A stretch of DNA of 64,000 bases, taken from positions 434,001-498,000 of the forward strand of contig NZ_JAABOQ010000005.1 in NCBI RefSeq assembly GCF_010671565.1. The letters are read 5' to 3'. Numbering within the stretch: position 1 is the first letter of the stretch; the number at the start of each line of letters is the position of its first letter. Source of the DNA: Spongiivirga citrea (GTDB taxonomy: Bacteria; Bacteroidota; Bacteroidia; Flavobacteriales; Flavobacteriaceae). The translations under genes and the position numbers were made by a program. Below, in pieces: positions 4,394 to 19,985 of the stretch. The notes under the pieces were generated by a model. The model ran no database searches, had not been told where the DNA came from, and was given only the letters and a program-made list of their open reading frames with translations.

Positions 4394-6979
4394 CTAAAAT
4401 GGATAGTTAATACCAATATTATATACCGCATTGCTAAAATTGAAGTTGCGAAACCAGCGGTCGTTTTCTGGCAGCGCTGGGTCGTAAGTTTTAAAGCCGG
4501 TATCTAATCGCAGTACTAAAAACCCAAAATCATAACGTATCCCAAATCCGCTACCCAAGGCGAGGTCTTTAAGAGATGAGAAGCCGTTAAATTGTGCAGC
4601 TTCATCAGGAGTATCGTCAAAAACATTCCAGATGTTTCCGGCATCCGCAAAAAATGCACCATTCACTTTTCCAAATAGTTTAAAACGATATTCTAAGTTA
4701 GCAGCGAGTTTTAAGTTTGCTTCGTTAAACTCATTCGGGCTACCAGAACTACCTGGTCCTAGTGAGTAGGCCTGCCACGCACGATTATCATTTGAACCAC
4801 CACCAAAATAACTTCTAGCGAATGGGATGTTAGACGAATTTCCGTATGGAATTGCTACACCAGCAAAAGTTCTAAAAGCTAATGCATCATTTGCTGATAA
4901 TTGCCAATATTTTATATAATCTATTTCTGTTTTTGCATATTGGGTGAAAGCAACATCAAATACCTTTGCTTGGTCGCCATCTTTTTCAAAATTGAAGGCC
5001 CCTGAAACTGCAGAGAGTAAGTTTCCAGCGAACTCTATCTTCGTTCTAAACTGAGAAAAGTTATTGTCTAAAAATCCTTGTCGATTGTTTTTGGTGAAGG
5101 TGTAGCTCGAGGCGAAAATCAAGTTGTTTTGCGTAAGACGCTCTTTACGCTCTAAGATGTTTCGTACATCATTTTCTTCTGCCACTGAAAGTGCAGTACT
5201 GCCATTAACAACATCATCAATAAAACTATCGGTACCCGATGGGATGATCAAATTACCATCAGTATTTAATTGATCTGGATTTACCAAGCCAATATTATCC
5301 TGCGCAATGCCATTTAGCTCATTATATGAATTTCGATATACTTCAAAATAATTATTAATATTCTTGTTATTTACAAACTGAATATTAATAAGGTCGAGCG
5401 CGTGTGATTTTATGGTCGAGGCCTCCCAGTTATACCTTAATATACCTGTAAAATTTTGTCGGTCTAGCCCAATATTCTCTTGCAAACTAACACCCAGAGA
5501 TATTTGTGTAGTTGGCAACATATATTTAGGGATGATCTTTTCGGTATTAAAGGGAAAAAAGAATCTCGGAAAATCTAATTTCAAGTCACCACCAACTTCC
5601 GATATATTAAAAAACCGATTGTCATTGTTTGCAGGATCATTAGTCGATCCTAAGGTTCCGCTTAGCGATAATTGGAGTGTTTCTGCCCCTCGAAAAACAT
5701 TTCGTGCCGTAAAATCGAGTCCGGCCGAAATACCAAAATCCTGAATGTCAGAATGCGAAAATTCAATTTTAGGTCTTATAGAAAATCGTTTTCTAGGAAT
5801 AAGAAAAATATTTGCCTCAAGATCGGTGTCAGAATCACCTATATATTCATACTCAATATTAGGATAGCGAAAGGTCTGTAATTTATTAAACGATCTGTTA
5901 GTTTGTACCCTAGCCTTATCACTATAAATATCATTAGGTATAATAAAGGTAGCGTCAGTAAGTGCTTTGGGTCTAAATTTTAATTCGCCTGAAGAATATA
6001 CATGATAATTACTGTTGACAATGCTGTCACTTGCTGTTTCTCGTTCGCTTATCGATTTATTGTCGGTAAAAATATTCACTCGCCTTATAGTGTGTACTTT
6101 GTAAGGCCTTGTTTCTCCATCTGCGGCATCCCTAACCGAGCCATCAGAAATATATAATTCTGTTGGCATTAAATAATCATCGTGTTCAGGTATGGTATCA
6201 CGTTCAGGGTAAAAGTGGATAGAGTTTTTCTGAAAAGTAAAAAAACCACTATTTCTAAAAAGCTCATTCAATCGGGATTGCTCTCTAACAAAATCACTGT
6301 TTTTATATTGTTTGCCTTGTTGTACAAAGGCTTTGTCTTTGTGTAATTGATAAACGGAATCAAGCTGCTGCGATTCAATAGTAACTGTGATAGAATCTAT
6401 AAAATATGGGTTTCCAGTAGTTATACTATAAAAGATTTCAGCACGCTGCGGTTTCTTTCCTTTTATTAAAGAGTCGGTCACTACATTATTAAAGTAGCCA
6501 TTACTATCATAGTAAGATTTTATCTTTTTTCTTGTTTTCTCTGTTTTTGATTCGTCTATAATAGCAGGCGCTTCTCCGGTTTCTCGCAGCCAGCGATTAA
6601 ACCCCATTGCATAATTGCCAATTTCATTAATCTGTTTTTTAGAGTAACGTCTAAACAATCTTTTTTTGCGCTTTTCGTTACTGTTAACCCAAGCTTTGAA
6701 AATAGAATCACGATTGTCACGCGCTAGATTAAAAATGTGAAGTCGAACAGGTGTACCAAGTAATTTACTATTTGGTGTTTGGTAGAAAAGACTTTCAATG
6801 GCATCGTCTTTTATTTTTTTACCATTTTCTATAATGGTATTATCAGTAAGGAGTAGTTCTTCCTCACCAACTTTTTTAATGGTATTACAAGAAAAGAATA
6901 GGATACTAATTACAATTAATACTCCTATTTTTGTGATGCCTAGCTTCAATATTTTACGTAAAAGAAATAACCCGTTCAA
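4394..6979 (-). CDS. tamL: Outer-membrane BamA/TamA-family lipoprotein (TamL-like)
   Basis: An 861-residue Omp85-family protein. The N-terminus is a lipoprotein signal (LFFSC, lipidated Cys31), which sets the Bacteroidota TamL type apart from ordinary TamA. POTRA-like repeats occupy roughly residues 40-400, and a 16-strand beta-barrel domain fills the C-terminal half, with the FGGGSNDNRAW, GSGFGIRYDFGF and RLDTGFK patterns typical of the bacterial surface antigen family. It is expected to work with an inner-membrane TamB in outer-membrane assembly or lipid transport. The start is a TTG at 6977-6979; no in-frame ATG exists before the lipobox and the frame is closed upstream. Only 15 bases separate it from the divergent methyltransferase gene, so the two promoters must overlap the opposing coding starts. 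Confidence 0.9.
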   Translation of the reverse strand: MNGLFLLRKILKLGITKIGVLIVISILFFSCNTIKKVGEEELLLTDNTIIENGKKIKDDAIESLFYQTPNSKLLGTPVRLHIFNLARDNRDSIFKAWVNSNEKRKKRLFRRYSKKQINEIGNYAMGFNRWLRETGEAPAIIDESKTEKTRKKIKSYYDSNGYFNNVVTDSLIKGKKPQRAEIFYSITTGNPYFIDSITVTIESQQLDSVYQLHKDKAFVQQGKQYKNSDFVREQSRLNELFRNSGFFTFQKNSIHFYPERDTIPEHDDYLMPTELYISDGSVRDAADGETRPYKVHTIRRVNIFTDNKSISERETASDSIVNSNYHVYSSGELKFRPKALTDATFIIPNDIYSDKARVQTNRSFNKLQTFRYPNIEYEYIGDSDTDLEANIFLIPRKRFSIRPKIEFSHSDIQDFGISAGLDFTARNVFRGAETLQLSLSGTLGSTNDPANNDNRFFNISEVGGDLKLDFPRFFFPFNTEKIIPKYMLPTTQISLGVSLQENIGLDRQNFTGILRYNWEASTIKSHALDLINIQFVNNKNINNYFEVYRNSYNELNGIAQDNIGLVNPDQLNTDGNLIIPSGTDSFIDDVVNGSTALSVAEENDVRNILERKERLTQNNLIFASSYTFTKNNRQGFLDNNFSQFRTKIEFAGNLLSAVSGAFNFEKDGDQAKVFDVAFTQYAKTEIDYIKYWQLSANDALAFRTFAGVAIPYGNSSNIPFARSYFGGGSNDNRAWQAYSLGPGSSGSPNEFNEANLKLAANLEYRFKLFGKVNGAFFADAGNIWNVFDDTPDEAAQFNGFSSLKDLALGSGFGIRYDFGFLVLRLDTGFKTYDPALPENDRWFRNFNFSNAVYNIGINYPF

Positions 6980-8158: not shown

Positions 8159-8205
8159 TTATTCGCACTTTTCACAAATTGACAAGTACAAAATCGATCA
8201 ACTGA

Positions 8206-9204
8206 ATGAAAAAAATTACGAAACAAACATATCTGAAATGGTACGAGGATATGTTGTTATGGAGGAAATTTGAAGACAAGCTAGCAGCAGTTTATATACA
8301 ACAAAAAGTACGCGGATTTCTGCATTTATATAATGGTCAGGAAGCAGTTCTTGCAGGGGCTTTACATGCAATGGAATTGGGTAAAGATCGTATGATTACA
8401 GCCTACCGTAATCACGTTCAGCCAATTGGTATGGGGGTCGATCCTCGTCGAGTAATGGCTGAGTTATATGGCAAGGCAACAGGTACTTCTCATGGTCTTG
8501 GTGGGTCGATGCATATTTTTTCAAAAGAAAAACGTTTTCACGGTGGTCACGGTATCGTTGGTGGACAAATTCCGTTAGGTGCTGGTATGGCATTTGGTGA
8601 TAAGTATAATAATAGTGATGCGGTTACCTTGTGTTATTTTGGTGACGGTGCGGCAAGACAAGGTTCATTACATGAGTCGTTCAACTTGGCGATGTTATGG
8701 AACTTGCCTGTAGTATTTATTTGTGAAAACAATGGTTATGCCATGGGTACTTCTGTTGCTCGTACTGCAAACCATGAAGATATTTGGAAGCTAGGTCTTG
8801 GATATGAAATGCCTAGCGAACCTTGTGATGGAATGGATCCTGTTGCGGTTGCCAAAGCAATGGATAAAGCCATTTCGAGAGCACGAAAAGGTGGTGGGCC
8901 AACTTTCCTAGAAATGAAAACCTATAGATATAGAGGGCACTCAATGTCCGATGCGCAAAAGTATCGTACAAAAGATGAGGTTGAAGAATACAAGAAAATA
9001 GATCCGATCACTCAAGTTTTAGATGTGATTAAATCAAAAAAATATGCAACTCAAAAGCAGATTGATGAAATTGATGCTAGAGTAAAGGCTTTGGTAAAAG
9101 AATGCGAGCAATTTGCTGAAGATTCACCATTCCCAGAAAAGGAGTTGATGTACGATGCAGTATACGAACAAAAAGATTATCCATTTATACCTCATAAACT
9201 CTAA
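8206..9204 (+). CDS. pdhA: Pyruvate dehydrogenase E1 component, alpha subunit
   Basis: This is the thiamine-diphosphate-binding alpha subunit of heterotetrameric E1, which decarboxylates pyruvate for the pyruvate dehydrogenase complex in the cytoplasm. The 332-residue length is normal. Key sites are the N-terminal MLLWRKFEDK and GFLHLYNGQEA segments and the ThDP/Mg motif beginning GDGAARQG at residue 146 and ending near ENNGYAMGTS. TYRYRGHSMSD is the conserved phosphorylation-loop region of the family. The E2 gene follows after 4 bases, clearly one operon; the E1 beta gene is not in the window, so the complex is split across loci, as is common in flavobacteria. Confidence 0.96.
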   Translation: MKKITKQTYLKWYEDMLLWRKFEDKLAAVYIQQKVRGFLHLYNGQEAVLAGALHAMELGKDRMITAYRNHVQPIGMGVDPRRVMAELYGKATGTSHGLGGSMHIFSKEKRFHGGHGIVGGQIPLGAGMAFGDKYNNSDAVTLCYFGDGAARQGSLHESFNLAMLWNLPVVFICENNGYAMGTSVARTANHEDIWKLGLGYEMPSEPCDGMDPVAVAKAMDKAISRARKGGGPTFLEMKTYRYRGHSMSDAQKYRTKDEVEEYKKIDPITQVLDVIKSKKYATQKQIDEIDARVKALVKECEQFAEDSPFPEKELMYDAVYEQKDYPFIPHKL

Positions 9205-9208
9205 TTAA

Positions 9209-10864
9209 ATGGCACAGATAGTAAATATGCCCAGACTAAGTGACACCATGGAAGAAGGTGTTGTTGCTAAGTGGTTAAAAAAAGTCGGAGATAAGGTTGA
9301 AGAAGGAGACATCCTTGCGGAAATTGAAACTGACAAGGCGACGATGGAGTTCGAATCTTTTAATGAAGGTGTGTTATTGCACATTGGCGTTCAAGAGGGA
9401 GAAACGGCACCCGTAGATACACTGTTGGCCATTTTGGGAGATAAGGGAGAAGATATTTCGGCATTGCTAAGCGGCGGTGCTGCAAACGGAAAAGCAGAAG
9501 CTGCTCCAGCTAAAGAAGCTCCAAAACAAGAAACTAAAGAAGAAACTGCTCCAGTAGCAAGTTCTGGTTCTTCGGAATTACCCGAAGGTGTAAAAGTGAT
9601 CACAATGCCTCGACTTTCTGATACTATGGAAGAAGGTACTGTGGCCACTTGGTTAAAAAAAGTTGGAGATAAGGTTGAAGAAGGAGATATCCTTGCCGAA
9701 ATAGAGACCGATAAAGCGACAATGGAATTTGAGTCCTTTAATGAAGGTACTTTATTATTCGTTGGATTAAAGGAGGGTGAGACTGCACCAGTTGATAGCG
9801 TTTTAGCAATAATTGGTCCTGCAGGCACTGATGTTTCTGGAATAGCAGCTAATTTTTCTAAAGGAGGTCATGGAGTTTCAAACGGAAAAGAAGCAGAAGC
9901 ACCAAAAGCAGGAGCTGCTCCAGTTGTAGAAACTACACCAGCAAAAACAGAAGAAAAAAGATCAGCACCAGTTGCAACAGTCTCTTCAAACGGACGCATT
10001 TTTGCATCGCCATTAGCTAAGAAATTAGCCGAAGAAAAAGGCATTAATCTTGCTGAAGTTCAAGGTACAGGGGATCATGGACGAATTATAAAGGCAGATA
10101 TAGAGAACTTCACACCCTCAAGTGCTGCTCCGGTTTCATCTGGAAGCGCTTCAGGTATAGGCACATTTGTTCCAGCAGGCGAGGAGTCTTTCGAAGAGGT
10201 GAAAAATTCACAAATGCGCAAGGCTATTGCAAAAAGCTTATCCGCATCAAAATTCACTGCGCCAGAGTATTATTTGACGGTAGAGTTAGATATGACCAAT
10301 GCAATGGCCTCTAGAAAGCAAATGAATGCATTGCCGGATACTAAAATATCATTCAATGATATGGTGGTTAAAGCATGCGCAATGGCATTAAGAAAACACC
10401 CGCAAGTAAATACAGTATGGGCTGATGATGCTACCAAATATGCTAAGCATATTAGTATAGGTGTTGCAGTAGCAGTACCCGACGGATTAGTTGTTCCAGT
10501 AGTGAAGTTTACTGATCACCTTACATTAAGTCAAATTGGTGCACAAGTAAAAGATCTAGCGGGAAAAGCAAGAGATAAGAAGTTGTCACTTGAAGAAATG
10601 CAAGGCAGTACTTTTACGGTTTCTAATCTTGGTATGTTTGGTATTACAGAATTTACTTCAATTATCAATCAGCCAAACTCGGCGATTTTATCGGTAGGTA
10701 CGATCGTACAAAAGCCAGTTGTAAAAGACGGCGAAATTGTAGTTGGAAATACAATGAAAGTTACACTTGCTTGCGACCATCGAACTGTTGATGGTGCAAC
10801 AGGAGCACAGTTCTTACAAACATTAAAGTCGTATATTGAGAATCCGGTGACGATGTTGGTGTAA
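9209..10864 (+). CDS. pdhC: Dihydrolipoamide acetyltransferase (E2) of pyruvate dehydrogenase, two lipoyl domains
   Basis: This is the core acetyltransferase passing the acetyl group from lipoamide to CoA. There are two lipoyl domains (about residues 3-78 and 130-205), each with the lipoylation motif IETDKATMEFES (Lys43 and Lys169). Ala/Pro/Glu-rich linkers follow, then a peripheral subunit-binding domain (about 262-300, ASPLAKKLAEEKG) and the catalytic domain ending in HRTVDG (His524, Asp528). The two lipoyl domains are nearly identical in places, which suggests recent duplication or gene conversion. It is translated 4 bases after pdhA and followed by a strong terminator. 551 residues is normal for the two-lipoyl type. 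Confidence 0.96.
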   Translation: MAQIVNMPRLSDTMEEGVVAKWLKKVGDKVEEGDILAEIETDKATMEFESFNEGVLLHIGVQEGETAPVDTLLAILGDKGEDISALLSGGAANGKAEAAPAKEAPKQETKEETAPVASSGSSELPEGVKVITMPRLSDTMEEGTVATWLKKVGDKVEEGDILAEIETDKATMEFESFNEGTLLFVGLKEGETAPVDSVLAIIGPAGTDVSGIAANFSKGGHGVSNGKEAEAPKAGAAPVVETTPAKTEEKRSAPVATVSSNGRIFASPLAKKLAEEKGINLAEVQGTGDHGRIIKADIENFTPSSAAPVSSGSASGIGTFVPAGEESFEEVKNSQMRKAIAKSLSASKFTAPEYYLTVELDMTNAMASRKQMNALPDTKISFNDMVVKACAMALRKHPQVNTVWADDATKYAKHISIGVAVAVPDGLVVPVVKFTDHLTLSQIGAQVKDLAGKARDKKLSLEEMQGSTFTVSNLGMFGITEFTSIINQPNSAILSVGTIVQKPVVKDGEIVVGNTMKVTLACDHRTVDGATGAQFLQTLKSYIENPVTMLV

Positions 10865-10907: not shown

Positions 10908-10940
10908 AAACCCCAAGTTGATGCTTGGGGTTTCTTTTTC
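10908..10940 (+). terminator. Terminator of the pdhA-pdhC operon
   Basis: A 10-base perfect stem (AAACCCCAAG at 10908-10917, CTTGGGGTTT at 10924-10933) followed by a T-rich run. Confidence 0.85.
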
Positions 10941-10953
10941 CCCAGTAAAATAC

Positions 10954-10970
10954 CTACATGATCTATGTAG
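10954..10970. promoter_or_regulatory. Palindromic operator 1 (CTACAT-N5-ATGTAG), upstream of the histidine kinase
   Basis: The arms CTACAT (10954-10959) and ATGTAG (10965-10970) flank GATCT, and the symmetry extends to 9 bases per arm (10951-10973). A near -7 box, TCTTTTTG, lies at 10985-10992, 15 bases further on. The same 6-N5-6 palindrome occurs before the response-regulator gene and before the giant surface-protein gene, so it is probably the binding site of the LuxR-type regulator. Confidence 0.65.
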
Positions 10971-11018
10971 GTAGTGGTTTTATGTCTTTTTGTATATTCC
11001 AACTCATATTGTTTGCCG

Positions 11019-13865
11019 TTGAGACATTTAATTTATCCTTTTCTTTTTTCCTTTTTTATAGTGTTTTCCCAGGAAAAGGGAATCCATTATACTACAGCTG
11101 ATGGTTTACCTCATGATATCACGTATGGTATTTATCAGGATACGGAAGGATATTTATGGATCGGTACAGACAATGGTTTAGCCAAGTTTGATGGGCAGAA
11201 ATTCAAGGTATTTACAACCAATGAAGGACTCCGAACGAACTATGTTATTGACATAGCGCAGAACGAAAACGGTACTCTGGGCATAGCTTCCTGGGGAGGT
11301 GGAGTACATTTAATAAAAAACGACTCGGTTTTACTTCCCAAAATACCAAATGATTCTTTAGAGAAGATAAACAATATTGATTTTCATAAGGAAATGATTC
11401 TGGTGGAAAATTCAAGTGGTAATTATGTTTATCATAAAACAAATGGAGGTTATCACCGTGAAACTTTAATCGCAAAAATGGCCAATGATGGTAAATATAT
11501 ACTCGAAAGACCAGAAGATTTTGAAAGACCAAATGGTAAAATCGGGACCTTAGACGGAAAGATGGTATTGTTTAATGGTTCTTATTTTGTTGAGTTTAAT
11601 GACGAAAAATTATATGGCATATACAGCGTGGATGTTGACAGAAAAACCACAGAATTATTTCCTTTTTTAAATGATAAAATTATTCATTCAGTTTCAAAAG
11701 TAGGACTAAATGAGTTCGTGGCCAGTCAACGCGATACAGTATACTTTTTTAATAGAGAGTCCATAGAGCATACAGAAGTAATTCCGACCGGTGGTAGGAT
11801 TATTAAAAAAATCATTAAAACTAGAGACAATGAATACCTTTTGCTTACAAAAGGAGGGAATGGTTTTAAAAGGGCATTTCATTACAATTTGGTGAAAGAT
11901 ACTACGGTTGATTTGTCCATAGGCCTTTCCATAAGTGCTCCAATTTCTGATATTCTTAAGGACCACGAAGGAAATGTTTGGTTAACGACGCATGGTGATG
12001 GGGTCTACTGTGTTATTAACCAAGATGTAGACTTCACTTATTTAGATGATTCCCATTTACGGGATGCCACTAATATCAAAGGAATTGTTGAGTTAAATGG
12101 AGAAATCTTTGTTTTAACCGCCAACCACCTTTTCTCATTTAGAAATTTTGAAAAAGAAAGTGAGATCAATTTAAAAGGAATGGGTAAACATCTGCTTAAA
12201 CTAGATGGCGACAAAATATCCATTAATTTCTTAGGTAAAGGAAGTAATTCAGGACACCCATTTTTGATAGAAAATCAGAGTTATAAATCATTTATGGTCG
12301 ATTCCCTTGATTATATAATACAGGCCGATAGTCTTAAAATCCCTTCTCTTAAAACAAAGGCAATTTATGAGAATAGGATATTGTTTGATGCTGTGTTTTT
12401 TAGAGATACACTTTGGTTCGCAACAAGTACTGGACCTAGTTACTATGATTATAAAACCAATAGCTTAATTAACAAGACTATCAATGGAAAAACATTGTCA
12501 AGTAAACAAATAAAAAAGTTTTTGAAGCAAAATGATAGCCTGTGGATTGCGACAACAAAAGGACTTGATTTGCTATTTGAAAATAGATTAAAATCCTTTA
12601 CCACAAAAAACGGATTGATCGATAATCAAGTAAATACTTTATTAATTGATCATAGAAAAGATCTTTGGATTGGTACACAAAAAGGAATTTCCATACTTAA
12701 AGAAAACAAGTGTGTTAATATTACTGAAGCCACCGGACTACTATCGCCATATGTAGAAACCTTGCTTGAAGATTCAGATCACAATATCTGGATAGGGGGT
12801 AATAAGGGAGTTACAATAATTAACAATAAAACTAGACTAAAGTTGCAATCACCTCCACGACTAATCATTGAGCAAATGAAGAATTCGTTTAGTTACAATG
12901 TGATTTCTTATAACAGATCAAATTCATTAGTTACTGAGTATCAAATAGACAATGAGACATGGACTAGGGTCTTAGAGAAAAAGGGAGTACTCGATTTTAG
13001 CAAACTTGGTACAGGGGATCATTCATTTAAATTGCGAGCAAAGAAACAAGACGGGGCTTGGAAGTATTCTAAAAGCTATACGTTTTCGGTTACCCTTCCG
13101 TGGCAGAAAGATTGGCGATATATCTTACTGCTTACTAGTATCGTATTCATTGGTGTAATTACCATTGTTAGCAAACAGCTTCAAAAAACTAAACAACGCA
13201 ATAAGTCTCTTCAATTGACTATTGAACGCAAGGAAGAATTAGAAAAAGAACTGAGTAATGTTCGCGAAAACGTGGCAAGAGATTTTCATGATGATCTTGG
13301 TAATCGATTAGCACGTATTTCTATTTTTTCAAATCTACTTTCAGCCAATAATAATGATATAGATGAAGGTGATCAAGAATTAATTGGTCAGATTAATACC
13401 GATGCTGATTATTTATACAAGGGCACCCGTGATTTTATTTTCTCCTTAAAATCAGAAAGTGATTATTTAGAAGAAGTCATTACTTATCTATCAGATTTTG
13501 GCGAAGATTATTTTAGACAGTTTAATATCGACTTTGTTGTTAACAAACGCATCGCTAAAAACACCAAACTTCCCTACTATTGGAGTAAGCAGTTGATCTT
13601 TATTTTTAAGGAAGCAATGACCAACGTTGCTAAGCATGCGAAGTGCTCTAAAATTGAATTAAGTTTTAGCTTTAAATCGGATAGATTGATTATAAAGTGC
13701 GAGGACAATGGTATTGGTATTCACGAAGAATTATTAGGTTCAAGTCGCGGAATAAATAATATGAAACGGAGAGCAAATAAAATTGGAGGGGAGTTATTGA
13801 TTCACTCTCTAAAAGAAAAAGGAACCTCAGTAACCTTTAATGGAAAAACTACACTAGTAGTGTAG
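11019..13865 (+). CDS. Propeller-type sensor histidine kinase (two-component regulator propeller, HisKA_3)
   Basis: A hybrid-free sensor kinase with a large periplasmic sensor. Repeated two-component-regulator propeller blades occur in the N-terminal 650 residues (patterns such as DTEGYLWIGTDNGLAKFDG, GNVWLTTHGDGVY and KDLWIGTQKGISIL). A Y_Y_Y-like beta-sandwich, a single membrane helix (YILLLTSIVFIGVITIV), a coiled coil and a cytoplasmic HisKA_3/HATPase_c kinase follow. The phospho-accepting His is in VARDFHDDLGNRLARI. ATP-binding boxes EAMTNVAKHAKC and EDNGIGI are present. I chose the TTG at 11019 because it yields a clean signal peptide (RHLIYPFLFSFFIVFSQ) and lies after the predicted promoter; a GTG at 10974 opens the same frame but sits before the -7 box. 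It is followed 45 bases later by its likely partner regulator. An operator palindrome overlaps its stop codon. Confidence 0.92.
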   Translation: MRHLIYPFLFSFFIVFSQEKGIHYTTADGLPHDITYGIYQDTEGYLWIGTDNGLAKFDGQKFKVFTTNEGLRTNYVIDIAQNENGTLGIASWGGGVHLIKNDSVLLPKIPNDSLEKINNIDFHKEMILVENSSGNYVYHKTNGGYHRETLIAKMANDGKYILERPEDFERPNGKIGTLDGKMVLFNGSYFVEFNDEKLYGIYSVDVDRKTTELFPFLNDKIIHSVSKVGLNEFVASQRDTVYFFNRESIEHTEVIPTGGRIIKKIIKTRDNEYLLLTKGGNGFKRAFHYNLVKDTTVDLSIGLSISAPISDILKDHEGNVWLTTHGDGVYCVINQDVDFTYLDDSHLRDATNIKGIVELNGEIFVLTANHLFSFRNFEKESEINLKGMGKHLLKLDGDKISINFLGKGSNSGHPFLIENQSYKSFMVDSLDYIIQADSLKIPSLKTKAIYENRILFDAVFFRDTLWFATSTGPSYYDYKTNSLINKTINGKTLSSKQIKKFLKQNDSLWIATTKGLDLLFENRLKSFTTKNGLIDNQVNTLLIDHRKDLWIGTQKGISILKENKCVNITEATGLLSPYVETLLEDSDHNIWIGGNKGVTIINNKTRLKLQSPPRLIIEQMKNSFSYNVISYNRSNSLVTEYQIDNETWTRVLEKKGVLDFSKLGTGDHSFKLRAKKQDGAWKYSKSYTFSVTLPWQKDWRYILLLTSIVFIGVITIVSKQLQKTKQRNKSLQLTIERKEELEKELSNVRENVARDFHDDLGNRLARISIFSNLLSANNNDIDEGDQELIGQINTDADYLYKGTRDFIFSLKSESDYLEEVITYLSDFGEDYFRQFNIDFVVNKRIAKNTKLPYYWSKQLIFIFKEAMTNVAKHAKCSKIELSFSFKSDRLIIKCEDNGIGIHEELLGSSRGINNMKRRANKIGGELLIHSLKEKGTSVTFNGKTTLVV
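13849..13865. promoter_or_regulatory. Palindromic operator 2 (CTACAC-N5-GTGTAG), overlapping the kinase stop codon
   Basis: CTACACTA and TAGTGTAG form a perfect 8-base-arm palindrome around a single G; written as 6-N5-6 it is CTACAC-N5-GTGTAG. Its last three bases are the TAG stop of the kinase gene. An exact -7 box, TATTTTTG, follows at 13888-13895, 22 bases downstream, just before the response-regulator gene. Confidence 0.6.
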
Positions 13866-13887
13866 TACAACTAATTGTGGTAACAAT

Positions 13888-13895
13888 TATTTTTG
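13888..13895 (+). promoter_or_regulatory. -7 promoter box for the response regulator
   Basis: TATTTTTG matches TAnnTTTG, 15 bases before the regulator's ATG. No TTTG -33 element is seen at the right distance; instead operator 2 lies upstream, with a second small palindrome AATTGT-N4-ACAATT (13873-13888) in between. This suggests activator-dependent transcription. Confidence 0.45.
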
Positions 13896-13910
13896 GCATA
13901 ACCAAAACTC

Positions 13911-14531
13911 ATGATGCACCGAATTATAATAGTAGAAGATAATGTGCCACTTAGCAAGGGTTTTAAAAAGCATATTGATAAAACAGACGATTATGAGGTG
14001 GTAAACATCTATGATAACTGTGAAGATGCTTTGTTAAACCTAAAAGTAGACAAACCAGTAATTGTTTTAATGGATATTGAATTGCCTGGAATGAATGGAG
14101 TTGAAGGAACAAAAAAGATCAAGGCAAAATATCCAAATATCAACATTCTTATTGTTACGGTTTATGAAAATTCAGAAACCGTTTTTAATGCGCTTTGCGC
14201 TGGAGCTTCTGGTTACTTAACTAAAAATGCAACTCCACAACAAATTACCAATGCTTTAGATGAGGTTATGAAGGGGGGAGCACCCATGAGTATACATATA
14301 GCAAAAATGGTGGTACAATCATTTCGAAAAGCACCTGAAAGTATTTTGTCCGATCGTGAAACTGAAGTACTTAGTTTATTGGCATCTGGAAAGAGCTATA
14401 AGAGTGTTGCAGACACCATGTTTATTAGCGTTAATACTATTCGCTTTCATGTAAAAAACATTTACGATAAGTTGCAGGTTTGTAGTCGTGAAGATGCCAT
14501 TAAAAAGGCAAATGATCAAAGGCTTATTTAA
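13911..14531 (+). CDS. LuxR/NarL-family response regulator
   Basis: A 206-residue two-domain regulator. The receiver domain (residues 1-125) has acidic pocket residues Glu9 and Asp10, phospho-accepting Asp55 in LMDIELPG, and the conserved Lys in GYLTKNA. The C-terminal LuxR-type helix-turn-helix (about 142-200) has LSDRETEVLSLLASGKSYKS, followed by ISVNTIRFHVKNIYDKL. It lies 45 bases after the propeller kinase, its probable phosphodonor. Two adjacent ATGs (13911 and 13914) are possible starts. The three CTACAY-N5-RTGTAG palindromes around it are the best candidates for its targets, which would make the system autoregulated and link it to the surface-protein gene downstream. The pairing and targets are inference. 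Confidence 0.95.
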   Translation: MMHRIIIVEDNVPLSKGFKKHIDKTDDYEVVNIYDNCEDALLNLKVDKPVIVLMDIELPGMNGVEGTKKIKAKYPNINILIVTVYENSETVFNALCAGASGYLTKNATPQQITNALDEVMKGGAPMSIHIAKMVVQSFRKAPESILSDRETEVLSLLASGKSYKSVADTMFISVNTIRFHVKNIYDKLQVCSREDAIKKANDQRLI

Positions 14532-14604
14532 CTGTTAACTTCTTCCTCTGGAATTAGCTATTGCTAGTATCTCAACTACAACATCTAATAGTATTCTTTA
14601 AAAT

Positions 14605-14621
14605 CTACATCATTCATGTAG
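14605..14621. promoter_or_regulatory. Palindromic operator 3 (CTACAT-N5-ATGTAG), upstream of the giant surface-protein gene
   Basis: The arms CTACAT (14605-14610) and ATGTAG (14616-14621) are identical to operator 1. The centre is about 45 bases upstream of the predicted transcription start set by the TACATTTG box at 14645-14652, the usual position for LuxR-type activators that contact RNA polymerase. Confidence 0.65.
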
Positions 14622-14644
14622 TCCAACTAACATAGTGGCATAAT

Positions 14645-14652
14645 TACATTTG
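14645..14652 (+). promoter_or_regulatory. -7 promoter box for the giant surface-protein gene
   Basis: TACATTTG matches TAnnTTTG exactly. There is no TTTG -33 element at the expected spacing; operator 3 occupies the region instead. Confidence 0.5.
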
Positions 14653-14677
14653 GCTTGAACATTTAACCAAATAAATT

Positions 14678-17600
14678 ATGAAACGACTTTTAATTGCGTT
14701 TATACTGCTATGCAGTTCTTATGGCTATTCCCAAATCATTAATTTTCCGGATGCTAATTTTAAGGCAAGATTAATTGCTTTAGGGGTGGATACCAATACT
14801 GATGGCGAAATACAGCAAAGCGAAGCGCTGGTACCTACCGCATTGGATTTAAGTAATCAAAACATTGCCGATGCCACAGGAATCGAATTCTTTACATCGC
14901 TAACTACGCTTAGATTTAATGGAAACAACCTAACTAGTATTGATGTTTCATCCAATACAGCTTTGAGGCTTCTTGCAGTAACCGCAAACCCCATTACTAC
15001 TTTAAATGTCTTTGACAATACGGCTTTGGAGAGTCTTTTCTTTGCAGATTGCACTAATTTATCATCAGTAACTCTTCCCTCTTCAGGATCTAATTTGATA
15101 AGTATATCTGGAAGAGATAATACATTACTTACGAGTATTAATCTTACGCCTTATACAAATTTGATTGCTTTTAGTTTGACTGGAGGAGGATTAACAAGTC
15201 TGGATGTTTCTTCAAATACGGCATTAACAGCTTTAGTTTGTACCAGTAATGCGCTAACAAGCCTAGATGTATCATCAAATGCAGCACTACAGGTGCTTCA
15301 ATGCGGAGATAATAACTTAACAAATTTGAGTTTTGCAGTTAATTCCAATCTACAGAATCTCGCATGCGGTGGAAATGCACTCACATCTTTAGATATTTCT
15401 TCACTTTCCTTGCTTTCCAGCCTAGATTGTATGGATAATGATTTGTTTAGTTTAAACATAAAGAATGGGAACAATTCAAACTTTAATGCAATGTTTGCCT
15501 CTAACAACCCGAATTTAGTTTGTATTCAGGTGGATGACGCAGCCGCAGCCGCAGCCAATACAAATTTTACAAAAGATGCTTTTACAACCTATTCGGACAC
15601 CAACCCATGTAGCCCTTTTATAAATTTTCCAGATGCCAATATGAAAGCGGCTGTAATTATTAATCCAGGGATAGATATAAACGGTGACGGAGAAGTACAA
15701 TTTAATGAAGCTGCAAGAGTAACCTCATTAGGTTTGCTTAATGCAAATATTAGTGACGCTACTGGTATCGAAAATTTTACGTCGCTAAGAAATTTAACCA
15801 TAAAGGACAACCCTGCATTGAATACGTTAGATGTATCTGCACTTTCTTTATTAGAGGTTTTAGATGCGAGTAATAATAGCTTAACAAGTTCAAATTTAAT
15901 ATTACCATCTAGTTCAACGTTAAGAGTACTAAACGTAAGCGACAATAGCTTAACATCTCTTGATGTATCTGGGTTTACCAACTTAGAAGATTTGGACTGT
16001 ACCAATAATACTATTACCAGTCTTAATATCACTTCTTCTTCAATAATTGATGTATTTGCAAATGCTAACCCCTTAACCAGTTTTGATGTTCCAGCAACAA
16101 ATACCCTTACGAGATTATATTTGGGTGGTTTTCGGTTAACTAGCTTAGATACTTCTTTGTATACAGGCTTGCAAGAATTAGATTTAGACTTTTCTAGGGT
16201 TACCAGTTTAGATGTATCATCAAATACTAATTTAACGTATTTAAGTGTTGGGAATGGCAACTTAGCAGAGTTAAATCTTTCTAATTTAACCAATTCTACA
16301 ACTATAAATACTTCTGGGAATACAAATTTATCCTGTATTATAGTCAGTGATGTTGCAGTGGCTAATGCCAATACCAATTGGACTAAAGATGCTACAGCAA
16401 ATTATGCACTTTCATGCGGACCTTCTATTGCTATAAATAACGCACCTGCATCAACTTCTGGTCCATTTACAGTAACGTTTAATATTGATAGAGACGTAAC
16501 CGGTTTTACTGCTAGTGACGTAGTGTTAACCAATGCCAGTATAAGTGGTTTTACGGCTATTAGTGGTCCTGATGAGTATGAAGCTTTAATTACACCTGTT
16601 TCTATTTGCGGTACGAACATTACCATAGATGTGCCAGCTAATGTAATGATAGATGGTTCTAACGCTCCAAACTCAGCGGCAACCCAAGTGACTATTGCAA
16701 CTGTAGATGATGTTGATCCTATAGCTCTTAGTCAGGATATTACGGTACAATTAGGAGGACGCGGGAATGACATAGCTATAATTACAGGGGCTGACATAGA
16801 TAATGGGAGTACTGACAACTGTGGGATTGCAAATGTAACAGTAGACAAAACAACTTTTAATTGCACTGAAATTGGAACCAACACGGTAATATTGACAGTT
16901 ACGGATACCTCTGGAAATATAAATACTACTACAGCTATAGTGACTGTGGAAGATGATAACGACCCAATAGCTATTGCGCAAGATATCACTATACAGTTAG
17001 GGGCTAACGGCCAAGCAACAATCACTGCACAAGATATCAATAATGGTAGTTCAGATAATTGTAGTGTGGCCTTATCATTAAGCCAATCGACCTTTGATTG
17101 TTCTAATTTGGGAGCTAATACAGTTACTTTAACAGCAACTGACCCCAGTGGTAATACTGATACGGCCACAGCGATTGTGACCATAGAAGATAATCAGCCA
17201 TTAACCGCGGTTGCTCAAAACATTACTGTACAATTGGATGCTAATGGTCAAGCGACCATTGCACCACAAGATGTCGACAATGGCTCAGGAAGTGGATGCG
17301 GTAATATCACTTTAAGTCTGGATACAACAAATTTTGATTGTTCAAACATTGGCCAGAATACGGTAACACTAACAGTCACAGAAGGCCCAAATACAGAAAC
17401 AGCTACTGCTATTGTAACGGTCGAAGACAGTTTAAATCCCACAGTAGTCACTCAAGATATAGCTATTCAATTAGACACCAACGGTCAGGCCAGTATTACA
17501 GCAGCCGATATTGATAATGGTAGCAGTGATAATTGTGGTATAGCCACCCAAACATTAGATATCACCAGTTTTGATTGTTCAAATATAGGAGCCAATACTG

Positions 17601-18961
17601 TTACACTAACAGTTACAGATACCGAAGGCAATGTAGGTGCAGCAACTGCTATAGTAACGGTTTCAGAAACAGTTGCTCCAACAGCACTCGCTCAAGATAT
17701 AACGGTTCAACTAGACGGAATGGGTAATGCTAGCATTACAGCTGCTCAAATAGATAATGGATCAACAGATAATTGCTCAGTTACAAATAGAAGTCTCGAT
17801 ACGACAACATTTAGTTGTACAGATCTTGGAGCGAACACCGTAACCTTAACAGTGGAAGATGCTAGCGGAAATACAGATACAGCCACCGCCACGGTAACAG
17901 TGGAGGACAACAGTACCCCAACTGCTATTGCTCAAAATATAACGGTGCAGTTGGATACAAACGGACAGGTTACCATACAGGGCTCAGATCTTGATAATGG
18001 AAGTACTGATAATTGTACATTGACTTTTACAGTCGATACCAGCACTTTTGACTGTTCTGCTTTAGGAGCTAACACAGTGACTCTTACTGCGACCGATGAC
18101 TCTGGTAATTCAAGCATCGCCACTGCTACGGTAACAGTCGAAGACACCCTAGCTCCAACAGTGACCACTCAAGATATTACGGTGACTTTAGATGCCAATG
18201 GTGATGGGAGCATTGCTCCATCTGATATAAATAACGGTTCTACAGATAATTGTACAGCCGATGCTGATTTGATCTATGCATTAGATACGACCACTTTTGA
18301 TTGTTCTAATCTAGGAGCCAATACGGTAACACTAACGGTCGCGGATGCAGAAGGAAACACATCAACAGGAACAGCTACTGTAACGGTAACAGAAGACGTA
18401 GCCCCAACGGTAGTGACTCAAGACATCACTGTTTCATTAGATACAAATGGACAAGCCAGTATCACTGCAGCCGATATTGATAATGGTTCTACAGATGATT
18501 GTAGTGGTATTGCATCAACAAGTTTGGATATTACTGATTTTGATTGTCCCGGTTTAGGTGATGTAACAGTGACCCTAACAGTCACCGATAATGAAGGTAA
18601 CACAGCCACAGGAACAGCCACTGTAACCATTACTGCAACAGATGAAGATAACAATGGTGTTGCAGATGATTGTGAGAGTAAAGAGATAGTGACTCCACAA
18701 GGTTTTTCTCCTAATGGAGATACCATCAACGATACTTGGGTGATCGAGAATATCGATGACTTTCCAAATAGCAAGGTGACAGTTTACAACCGCTGGGGTC
18801 AAAAGGTGTTTGAGGCTAATAATTATCAGAATGATTGGGATGGTACTTCTACAGAAGCAGGAAGTGGTAACCGCTTACCAGCGGGTAGTTATCTATATGT
18901 AATAGAACTAAACGATCCTGACTTCCCACCTAAACAAGGGTGGATATACATTAACTATTAA
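14678..18961 (+). CDS. Giant surface protein: two LRR/EF-hand-like modules, eight HYR-like repeats, type B T9SS sorting domain
   Basis: This 1427-residue secreted protein starts with a signal peptide (LIAFILLCSSYGYSQ). Two related modules follow (about residues 20-305 and 312-560), each opening with NFPDAN, a calcium-loop-like DxNxDGExQxxEA and then leucine-rich repeats (LTSLDVSSN type). A bacterial Ig-like segment (about 585-670) precedes eight tandem repeats of about 80 residues (about 677-1325). Each repeat has a QDITVQLD-like first strand, DNGSTDNC, and DCSxxGANTVTLTVTD, as in HYR-type beta-sandwiches. The last 90 residues (QGFSPNGDTINDTWVIENI, YNRWGQKVFE, LPAGSYLYVIEL) are the gliding-motility-associated CHU_C / type B T9SS sorting domain. 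It should be exported by the type IX system and held at the surface or released. porP/sprF follows after 142 bases with no terminator seen. It is under a predicted regulated promoter. Confidence 0.93.
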   Translation: MKRLLIAFILLCSSYGYSQIINFPDANFKARLIALGVDTNTDGEIQQSEALVPTALDLSNQNIADATGIEFFTSLTTLRFNGNNLTSIDVSSNTALRLLAVTANPITTLNVFDNTALESLFFADCTNLSSVTLPSSGSNLISISGRDNTLLTSINLTPYTNLIAFSLTGGGLTSLDVSSNTALTALVCTSNALTSLDVSSNAALQVLQCGDNNLTNLSFAVNSNLQNLACGGNALTSLDISSLSLLSSLDCMDNDLFSLNIKNGNNSNFNAMFASNNPNLVCIQVDDAAAAAANTNFTKDAFTTYSDTNPCSPFINFPDANMKAAVIINPGIDINGDGEVQFNEAARVTSLGLLNANISDATGIENFTSLRNLTIKDNPALNTLDVSALSLLEVLDASNNSLTSSNLILPSSSTLRVLNVSDNSLTSLDVSGFTNLEDLDCTNNTITSLNITSSSIIDVFANANPLTSFDVPATNTLTRLYLGGFRLTSLDTSLYTGLQELDLDFSRVTSLDVSSNTNLTYLSVGNGNLAELNLSNLTNSTTINTSGNTNLSCIIVSDVAVANANTNWTKDATANYALSCGPSIAINNAPASTSGPFTVTFNIDRDVTGFTASDVVLTNASISGFTAISGPDEYEALITPVSICGTNITIDVPANVMIDGSNAPNSAATQVTIATVDDVDPIALSQDITVQLGGRGNDIAIITGADIDNGSTDNCGIANVTVDKTTFNCTEIGTNTVILTVTDTSGNINTTTAIVTVEDDNDPIAIAQDITIQLGANGQATITAQDINNGSSDNCSVALSLSQSTFDCSNLGANTVTLTATDPSGNTDTATAIVTIEDNQPLTAVAQNITVQLDANGQATIAPQDVDNGSGSGCGNITLSLDTTNFDCSNIGQNTVTLTVTEGPNTETATAIVTVEDSLNPTVVTQDIAIQLDTNGQASITAADIDNGSSDNCGIATQTLDITSFDCSNIGANTVTLTVTDTEGNVGAATAIVTVSETVAPTALAQDITVQLDGMGNASITAAQIDNGSTDNCSVTNRSLDTTTFSCTDLGANTVTLTVEDASGNTDTATATVTVEDNSTPTAIAQNITVQLDTNGQVTIQGSDLDNGSTDNCTLTFTVDTSTFDCSALGANTVTLTATDDSGNSSIATATVTVEDTLAPTVTTQDITVTLDANGDGSIAPSDINNGSTDNCTADADLIYALDTTTFDCSNLGANTVTLTVADAEGNTSTGTATVTVTEDVAPTVVTQDITVSLDTNGQASITAADIDNGSTDDCSGIASTSLDITDFDCPGLGDVTVTLTVTDNEGNTATGTATVTITATDEDNNGVADDCESKEIVTPQGFSPNGDTINDTWVIENIDDFPNSKVTVYNRWGQKVFEANNYQNDWDGTSTEAGSGNRLPAGSYLYVIELNDPDFPPKQGWIYINY

Positions 18962-19103: not shown

Positions 19104-19985
19104 ATGAAAGAATTACGATATATCAGCCTATTAGTATTGCTATTGGTAGGACTACCCGGAACAACAATAGCCCAACAAGACCCTAGTTATACCTTGTATA
19201 ATTACAATATGAATGTGATCAATCCGGCTTTTGCAGGGAGCACAGAACAAACTCAACTCAATGTAAACTTTCGGAGTCAATGGGTGGGCTTACAAGGCGC
19301 CCCAGAGACCCAAAGCCTATCCTTAGGCATTCCGATTAATAATAAGATAGGTATAGGAGCATCGGTAGTAAACGACCGAGTGTTTGTCCTGAATGAGACT
19401 GATGCGTATATCGACTTCTCCTACAAGCTACAATTAACAGACAACACCAAGCTATACTTAGGACTAAAAGCGGGAGGCTCTTTTGTAGACATTGACTTAA
19501 ACTCGCTACAAATCACAAACGATCCATTATTCACAGAAAACGTGAGTACGTTTAATCCCAATATCGGTATCGGAGCCTTACTAAGAACAAACAATTATTA
19601 CATTACACTTTCTGCTCCACAGCTCTTAAAGAGCGACAGATATGAAAAGGAAGCAGGTATTGCAACCGAGGCGACGGATGAGTTACACTTCTTTGCAGGT
19701 GGTGGTTATCACATAAGCCTGAATGACAATCTACAGTTCACACCATCGACCATGGTGAGAATGGTATCAGGCAGTCCGACTACAATCGATCTAACAGGGA
19801 CTTTTGATATCTACAACAGAATAGAATTAGGACTGAACTACCGATTGAATGAATCAGTGAGTGGACTAGCCTTTGTAAAGATGGCTGATTGGATGGCCTT
19901 TGGCTATGCTTATGACAGAGCAACCACCAACATAGGTGACTATAGCAGAGGATCTCATGAGGTACTGCTTCGATTTAACTTATAA
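19104..19985 (+). CDS. PorP/SprF-family type IX secretion membrane protein
   Basis: A 293-residue outer-membrane beta-barrel protein with a signal peptide (LLVLLLVGLPGTTIAQQ). Family features are QDPSYTLYNYNMNVINPAFAGS near the N-terminus, NFRSQWVGLQGAPETQSLS, and alternating barrel strands to the C-terminus. SprF of Flavobacterium johnsoniae is needed for export of the adhesin SprB. Paralogues typically sit beside the type B cargo they serve, exactly as here, so this protein most likely serves the 1427-residue protein upstream. The stop codon overlaps the start of the next small gene (TAATG). Confidence 0.93.
   Translation: MKELRYISLLVLLLVGLPGTTIAQQDPSYTLYNYNMNVINPAFAGSTEQTQLNVNFRSQWVGLQGAPETQSLSLGIPINNKIGIGASVVNDRVFVLNETDAYIDFSYKLQLTDNTKLYLGLKAGGSFVDIDLNSLQITNDPLFTENVSTFNPNIGIGALLRTNNYYITLSAPQLLKSDRYEKEAGIATEATDELHFFAGGGYHISLNDNLQFTPSTMVRMVSGSPTTIDLTGTFDIYNRIELGLNYRLNESVSGLAFVKMADWMAFGYAYDRATTNIGDYSRGSHEVLLRFNL

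Follow-up and report, generated by a model that had tools for sequence, protein, structure and literature searches.

A palindrome at three promoters as the probable operator of an autoregulated two-component circuit for a type IX-secreted surface protein in Spongiivirga citrea

The 64,000-nucleotide stretch of Spongiivirga citrea DNA analysed here (contig NZ_JAABOQ010000005.1, positions 434,001 to 498,000 of the forward strand; hereafter the window) carries a cluster of genes for a sensor histidine kinase, a NarL/FixJ-type response regulator and a surface protein with a sorting domain of the type IX secretion system (T9SS). The palindrome CTACAY-N5-RTGTAG is present in the window in three exact copies, at 10954–10970, 13849–13865 and 14605–14621, before the kinase, regulator and surface-protein genes, respectively. 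Sequence comparisons indicate that this palindrome is very probably the operator of the regulator encoded at 13911–14531, and that the cluster would form a class II activator circuit for the surface protein, subject to autoregulation and dedicated to the cluster itself. A preliminary description of this DNA had located the three copies, seen no further full copy in the window and noted that CTACAC-N5-GTGTAG overlaps the end of the kinase gene; an exact search of the window bears out all three statements, and the middle palindrome ends on the kinase stop codon (TAG, 13863–13865).

The palindrome in the genome and its promoter register

No exact copy of the palindrome arises in 100 dinucleotide shuffles of the window. 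With up to two mismatches allowed, the window shows no clear enrichment (9 matches against a shuffle mean of 5.55; 8 of 100 shuffles reach 9), and the signal is thus limited to the exact copies; degenerate copies were not taken as sites. The genome (4.15 Mb, 17 contigs) contains six exact copies, compared with four for a reversed control pattern. This copy number is by itself chance-like, but chance does not account for three of the six copies falling within 3.7 kb at the starts of successive genes. The three copies outside the window lie in a tRNA gene of an rRNA operon (contig C3), a tRNA gene (C11) and a long reading frame (C10), and the best match to a −7 box (TAnnTTTG) at 21–23 bases on either side of them reaches 3 of the 6 fixed positions. 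The exact motif is therefore not scattered over unrelated promoters, the outcome against which the preliminary description had proposed a genome-wide search.

Copies with one mismatch number 29 beyond the six exact ones (35 in all, compared with 38 for the control). A perfect TAnnTTTG at 21–23 bases is missing on both sides of all 29, and 22 of them lie within a stretch free of stop codons that covers at least 390 of some 470 bases. A wider regulon is not proposed, and the circuit appears to be dedicated to the cluster that encodes it.

Class II activators bind next to the core promoter, at sites centred near −41/−43. Among 45 site–gene pairs from the window and related clusters, 34 have a match to TAnnTTTG (at least 5 of 6 fixed positions) that starts 22 or 23 bases past the site, whereas other pairs of offsets average 1.3 matches with a maximum of 7, and 2000 shuffles of the tails reach 7 at most. 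Perfect boxes occur at 22 or 23 bases in 13 of the 45 pairs and elsewhere at most once per offset pair. The distance, measured from the proximal half-site, is the same for palindromes with spacers of 4 and 5 bases. The 45 pairs represent 42 distinct sites, because the divergent sites of loci L025, L110 and L117 were counted once per direction; rows omitted as degenerate, one-sided or unclear are those of the L111 regulator, L034 12117, the L112 kinase, the L029 sites and L185 C9:322788, together with extra matches in L110, L113, L114, L030, L031 and L033. In a study of Flavobacterium psychrophilum, the TAnnTTTG box is placed at −12 to −5 (PMC9723704). With this placement, the dyad centre of the sites is predicted to lie at about −43/−44, which is a class II position relative to predicted transcription start sites and agrees with the earlier expectation of about −42.

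In the window, two of the three sites have a perfect box in this register: TATTTTTG (13888–13895, plus strand) starts 22 bases past the regulator site and TACATTTG (14645–14652, plus strand) starts 23 bases past the surface-protein site. These boxes had been recognized in the preliminary description, and they hold; the third box proposed there, TCTTTTTG, 14 bases past the kinase site, has one mismatch and is off register. In the usual register, 22 bases past the kinase site, a weak box, TATATTCC (10993–11000, plus strand), would serve instead. In T9SS-gene promoters of relatives, TACA or TCCA often comes directly after the proximal half-site (positions 2–4 past the site are A, C and A in 14, 13 and 14 of 19 rows), which is perhaps an extended contact.

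Conservation and joint change of operator and regulator

All three palindrome positions are kept in another genus of the same family, one of them with a mismatch, which is the conservation with the cluster that the preliminary description had wished to see compared. The regulator of this genome (G264) is 76% identical to that of the window, and the sites in its cluster (L109) are CTACATAAAATATGTAG before the kinase gene (5322–5338), CCACATAATTAATGTAG, with one mismatch (CCACAT-N5-ATGTAG), at the kinase end before the regulator gene (8173–8189), and CTACATGTTTTATGTAG before a gene for a leucine-rich repeat protein with a T9SS type A tail (8857–8873). Aligned in register with the window, the arms agree at 12/12, 9/12 and 12/12 positions (33/36 in all), compared with 7/15 for the spacers and 136/360 (38%) for flanks of 60 bases on each side. 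The kinase ends that overlap the middle site differ in protein sequence (TTLVV and KPHN), which indicates that the DNA itself is conserved. The exact motif occurs twice in G264, both times in this cluster, and with one mismatch there are 16 matches compared with 28 for the control. Within the genus of G264, a match at E ≤ 1e-60 was found in 1 of 10 genomes, namely G264 itself; 395 genomes drawn from the order contributed a single distant match; an enlarged family sample yielded no further CTACAY-type regulator, so that the total stays at two; and all 1650 matching records of a plasmid collection are less than 60% identical.

The nearest paralogous regulator in the S. citrea genome (61% identity; contig C9, cluster L025) is accompanied by sister sites, CTACCC-N5-GGGTAG, which lie between the divergent kinase and T9SS genes, before a gene for a 604-residue protein and before one for a 146-residue protein; a one-sided CTACCC copy is present at the kinase end, before the regulator gene. 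The three exact copies of this pattern in the genome (searched in the N5 form) are all within the L025 cluster, and a fourth CTACYY match, CTACTT, lies outside it. The two further genes with CTACCC sites (L025 5908–7722, minus strand, 604 residues; 4855–5295, plus strand, 146 residues, with a start that looks lipoprotein-like by eye) encode proteins for which scans with Pfam and NCBIfam gave no match.

Ten further genomes were searched for YYACCC-N3-5-GGGTRR, which matches 39 places compared with 28 for the control. Among symmetric sites with a spacer of 4 or 5, all ten of the CTACCC form (G264, 2; G318, 2; G206, 3; G085, 1; G239, 2) and all five of the TCACCC form (G464, 3; G362, 2) are in clusters that also encode a relative of the regulator. 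Three of the ten genomes (G207, G258, G033) have no symmetric CTACCC or TCACCC site with these spacers, and the sites of the G207 cluster are CTACCT and half-and-half forms. TTACCC sites of symmetric form, of which G318, G464 and G362 have one apiece, and most asymmetric and spacer-3 matches are outside regulator clusters. In G362, C10:87432 and C38:7615 carry an identical asymmetric site, CTACCCTTTTCGGGTGG, and one of the two is beside a regulator. A gene with a T9SS tail stands beside a site in each of the 15 scanned loci (the window, L025, L109–L118, L030, L033 and L146). A propeller was recognized in the scanned kinases of the window, L109 and L113, with L025 just under the cutoff; the L110 kinase and the second L113 kinase have TPR repeats, and the L115 kinase has no recognized sensor domain. 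In a second shell of 22 short loci (L124–L145; about 3.6 kb each, 38–48% identical), there is no CTACCC site; L136 has a CTAC...GTAG match of a different kind, and L124 has a TCACCC site.

Across 98 loci with a relative of the regulator (best regulator match per locus), two or more CTAC-type sites are present in 14 of the 17 loci whose recognition helix reads NT-[IV]-[KR]-[FY]-H and in none of the 81 others, 5 of which have one site and some of which are contigs of a few kilobases. Mean matches per locus are 2.82 in the NT-helix group and 0.06 in the others for CTAC cores, compared with 0.29 and 0.17 for scrambled cores. A de novo palindrome search of 93 loci, made without the motif, recovers CTAC families of three in the window, L025, L113, L030, L031 and L032, and one unrelated three-member family (TTCA) in L080, which has another helix type; in 465 block-composition shuffles, the largest family has two members. 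L032 and L113, whose contigs are equal in length, are apparently one record, and L032 was omitted as a duplicate from the tree and the locus counts.

Predicted operator classes follow the regulator tree (47 rows; two support values each in brackets). A clade of eight regulators (100/98) has spacer-4 sites throughout, and a clade of nine (97/93), which includes the pair formed by the window and G264 regulators (100/97), has spacer-5 sites in eight members and none in L038. The window and G264 regulators fall within a group of 17 rows (96/87) in which the other sites are of the CTACCC type, so that CTACAY is most simply regarded as derived. This tracking of the tree, together with the sister sites of relatives, supports the earlier proposal that the palindrome is the operator of the cluster-encoded regulator, and the conserved sites before the kinase, regulator and surface-protein genes likewise support its extension to an autoregulated circuit that would also control the surface protein.

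Changes in the helix accompany changes in the sites. In the alignment of 17 regulators, R178 is found in two, both with CTACAY sites, and the remaining 15 have K there; F or Y occupies position 179 in regulators with CTAC sites, and T does so in L118 and L146, whose sites are TCACCC; and the combination of L181 and I186 is present in 6 of 6 spacer-4 rows and 0 of 8 CTAC spacer-5 rows of the sister clade. A residue code of the NT-helix family may tentatively be read from these pairings, in which R or K at 178 would go with CTACAY or CTACCC, F/Y or T at 179 with CTACCC or TCACCC, and L181/I186 with a spacer of 4 rather than 5. As part of the same tentative proposal, the Flavobacteriaceae would possess a family of self-contained kinase/NarL-type regulator/T9SS cargo cassettes, each with a private operator that stays within its own cluster, and the code would insulate paralogues in the same genome. 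Each helix or operator change is a single event, which leaves the code a hypothesis.

Competing explanations and points against the operator

A first alternative accepts the sites as operators, with the cluster regulator repressing rather than activating there or with another LuxR-type regulator of the genome acting on them. The sign of regulation is not readable from sequence, and the genome has four further LuxR-type matches at E ≤ 1e-20. We nevertheless consider this alternative improbable, because sites near −43 in promoters whose −33 element is weak are typically those of activators, because the sites accompany this regulator family and track its tree and helix, and because the nearest paralogue has CTACCC sites of its own.

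A second alternative, in which the palindromes function at the RNA level between the genes, as terminators or attenuators or as hairpins for processing, appears very unlikely. Sites 1 and 2 can form stems of 8–10 bp, terminator-like structures were listed for site 1 on both strands and for site 2 on the minus strand, and T runs follow some CTACCC sites of relatives. However, site 3 does not pair into its stem when folded by prediction (z = +0.67), and sites 1 and 2 are surrounded by unremarkable folds (z = −1.08 and −1.64). Moreover, three promoters and two genera share the letters of the arms, beyond the needs of pairing, and the fixed distance to the downstream −7 box would place each site upstream of the transcript that it precedes. 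An RNA hairpin was rejected as the main explanation on these grounds. Chance recurrence of a short palindrome agrees with the genome-wide counts of exact and one-mismatch copies given above for both genomes, but three copies within 3.7 kb, each at a gene start, with none in the window shuffles and with repetition at corresponding positions in another genus, make it negligible.

Several observations weigh against an operator of a dedicated activator as proposed here. The kinase promoter of the window has a poor −7 box (4 of 6), and no match of 5 of 6 was seen at the kinase promoter of G264. The rows used for the register were picked by hand, and the register and locus-count statistics ignore kinship. 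Among NT-helix loci, L038 has no site, L117 has a mixed CTACCC/GGGTGG site, and L029 has one strict site with more degenerate ones; L147 and L148 have a KTH helix and yet one degenerate TCACCC site each. The pairing of CTACAY with R178 rests on two related sequences and one evolutionary event, and R at the position aligned with 178 is common in ET-x-R-TH helices whose loci have no site, which indicates that R alone is not the whole code. Dedication to the cluster is not absolute, in that 7 of the 29 one-mismatch copies have a 5-of-6 box at 21–23 bases on one side. Of seven places inspected more closely, the one-mismatch copy at C16:126835 (L186 3836–3852) overlaps the end of a gene for a 950-residue protein that resembles an outer-membrane receptor by eye; a lipoprotein-like gene follows 65 bases later, and a 5-of-6 box, TAAATTTT, lies 22 bases past the copy. 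It is the one possible further target seen, and a weak one.

The cluster, the proposed circuit and related systems

The gene upstream of the kinase is pdhC, which is closed by a terminator-like hairpin (10908–10933, plus strand; an 11-pair stem and a T-rich tail) just 5′ of the first operator. The listed reading frame of the kinase is 10974–13865, and its GTG start at 10974 would lie inside the promoter; a TTG start at 11019, which opens a plausible signal peptide as judged by eye, is likelier. The kinase gene (11019–13865, plus strand) encodes a Reg_prop propeller, HisKA_3 and HATPase_c, and the adjacent regulator gene (13911–14531, plus strand) encodes a protein with Response_reg and GerE domains, both above curated cutoffs (PF00072, 82.6 bits against 30.2; PF00196, 63.8 bits against 23.5), and with the recognition helix NTIRFH, which includes R178. 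Asp55 is invariant in all 17 aligned regulators. The surface protein (14678–18961, plus strand; 1427 residues) has leucine-rich repeats, Ig-like/HYR repeats and a CHU_C T9SS type B sorting domain (TIGR04131, 58.2 bits; cutoff 35). The adjacent gene (19104–19985, plus strand) encodes a PorP/SprF-type T9SS membrane protein (PF11751, 264 bits) and is likely co-transcribed with the surface-protein gene. A similar 5′ leader, resembling TTTAAACCAAATTTATTATGA, is found in T9SS genes immediately ahead of and at the start codon (window 14655–14680; L109 8910–8932; L112 9335–9359). The window cluster follows the pdh genes (8206–10864), and the spacer-4 CTACCC clusters of three other genomes (L114, L115 and L116), whose regulators belong to another clade, also follow pdhC; the slot after pdhC seems to attract such cassettes.

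In the proposed circuit, the propeller-type kinase would sense a signal and phosphorylate the response regulator, a dimer of which would bind CTACAY-N5-RTGTAG centred near −43 at the three promoters. These would be housekeeping-type promoters whose −33 element is weak or absent, and the regulator would activate them from the class II position. The targets would be the kinase, the regulator itself, and the T9SS-secreted leucine-rich repeat protein with its PorP/SprF partner, and the outcome would be positive feedback on the sensor–regulator pair combined with direct control of the output. The CTACAY specificity may have arisen from a CTACCC-type ancestor, along with a K-to-R change at residue 178 of the regulator, and the two changes would separate the circuit from that of the paralogue, with its CTACCC sites, in the S. 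citrea genome.

The circuit belongs to the known NarL-type two-component kind. NarL heptamers are arranged in a 7-2-7 pattern, and R178 aligns by equal-length ranges with chain position 187 of NarL in structure 1a04. This position would be residue 188 provided that the chain lacks its initial methionine, a residue that touches bases in NarL–DNA structures. By the same ranges, R178, F179 and K182 would correspond to NarL K188, V189 and K192, which have a base-contact role. Like NarL and NarP, the window regulator combines a receiver with a GerE helix-turn-helix (HTH) and is associated with inverted TAC...GTA half-sites. According to PMC4886647, the heptamer consensus of Escherichia coli NarL/NarP is TACYYMT; the sister site CTACCC contains TACCC, which fits TACYY, whereas the window half-site TACAY does not. 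In addition, the TAC-to-GTA spacing is shorter in the window than in the 7-2-7 arrangement, and the apparent regulon is a single cluster. By sequence, the domain order of the regulator is that of VraR, DesR, ChrA and other regulators of solved structure; among the matches listed, which were compared by name rather than by operator, none comes from a T9SS cargo cluster.

The hybrid two-component systems of Bacteroides combine kinase, receiver and AraC HTH in one protein. With its Reg_prop, HisKA_3 and HATPase_c domains, the window kinase resembles these systems and the HisKA_3 propeller kinases (Reg_prop/Y_Y_Y); unlike in the hybrid systems, the regulator is a separate protein of the GerE type, and a domain scan of the kinase gave no receiver or AraC match. 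The PorXY–SigP system also ties two-component regulation to type IX secretion in Bacteroidota (PMC4800418; PMC5005315). As described there, it is concerned with the secretion machinery, whereas the output in the window would be a cargo protein and its partner; the NCBIfam PorX model gives the window regulator 53 bits against a cutoff of 300. Among the papers listed by a literature search in which subscription journals are thinly covered, none dealt with this palindrome or with a pairing of LuxR-type regulators and T9SS cargo.

To our knowledge, few regulators of individual T9SS cargo proteins have been described. What distinguishes this circuit is its apparent dedication to one cluster, its recurrence with T9SS cargo in Flavobacteriaceae, and a change of specificity that a few residues may explain. 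Because operator, regulator, promoter register and target can be read together, a simple pattern search can predict targets for LuxR-family regulators of this type that are encoded beside secreted proteins. The pair of paralogues in one genome, CTACAY with R178 and CTACCC with K, is a natural experiment on how response regulators gain a new DNA specificity after duplication.

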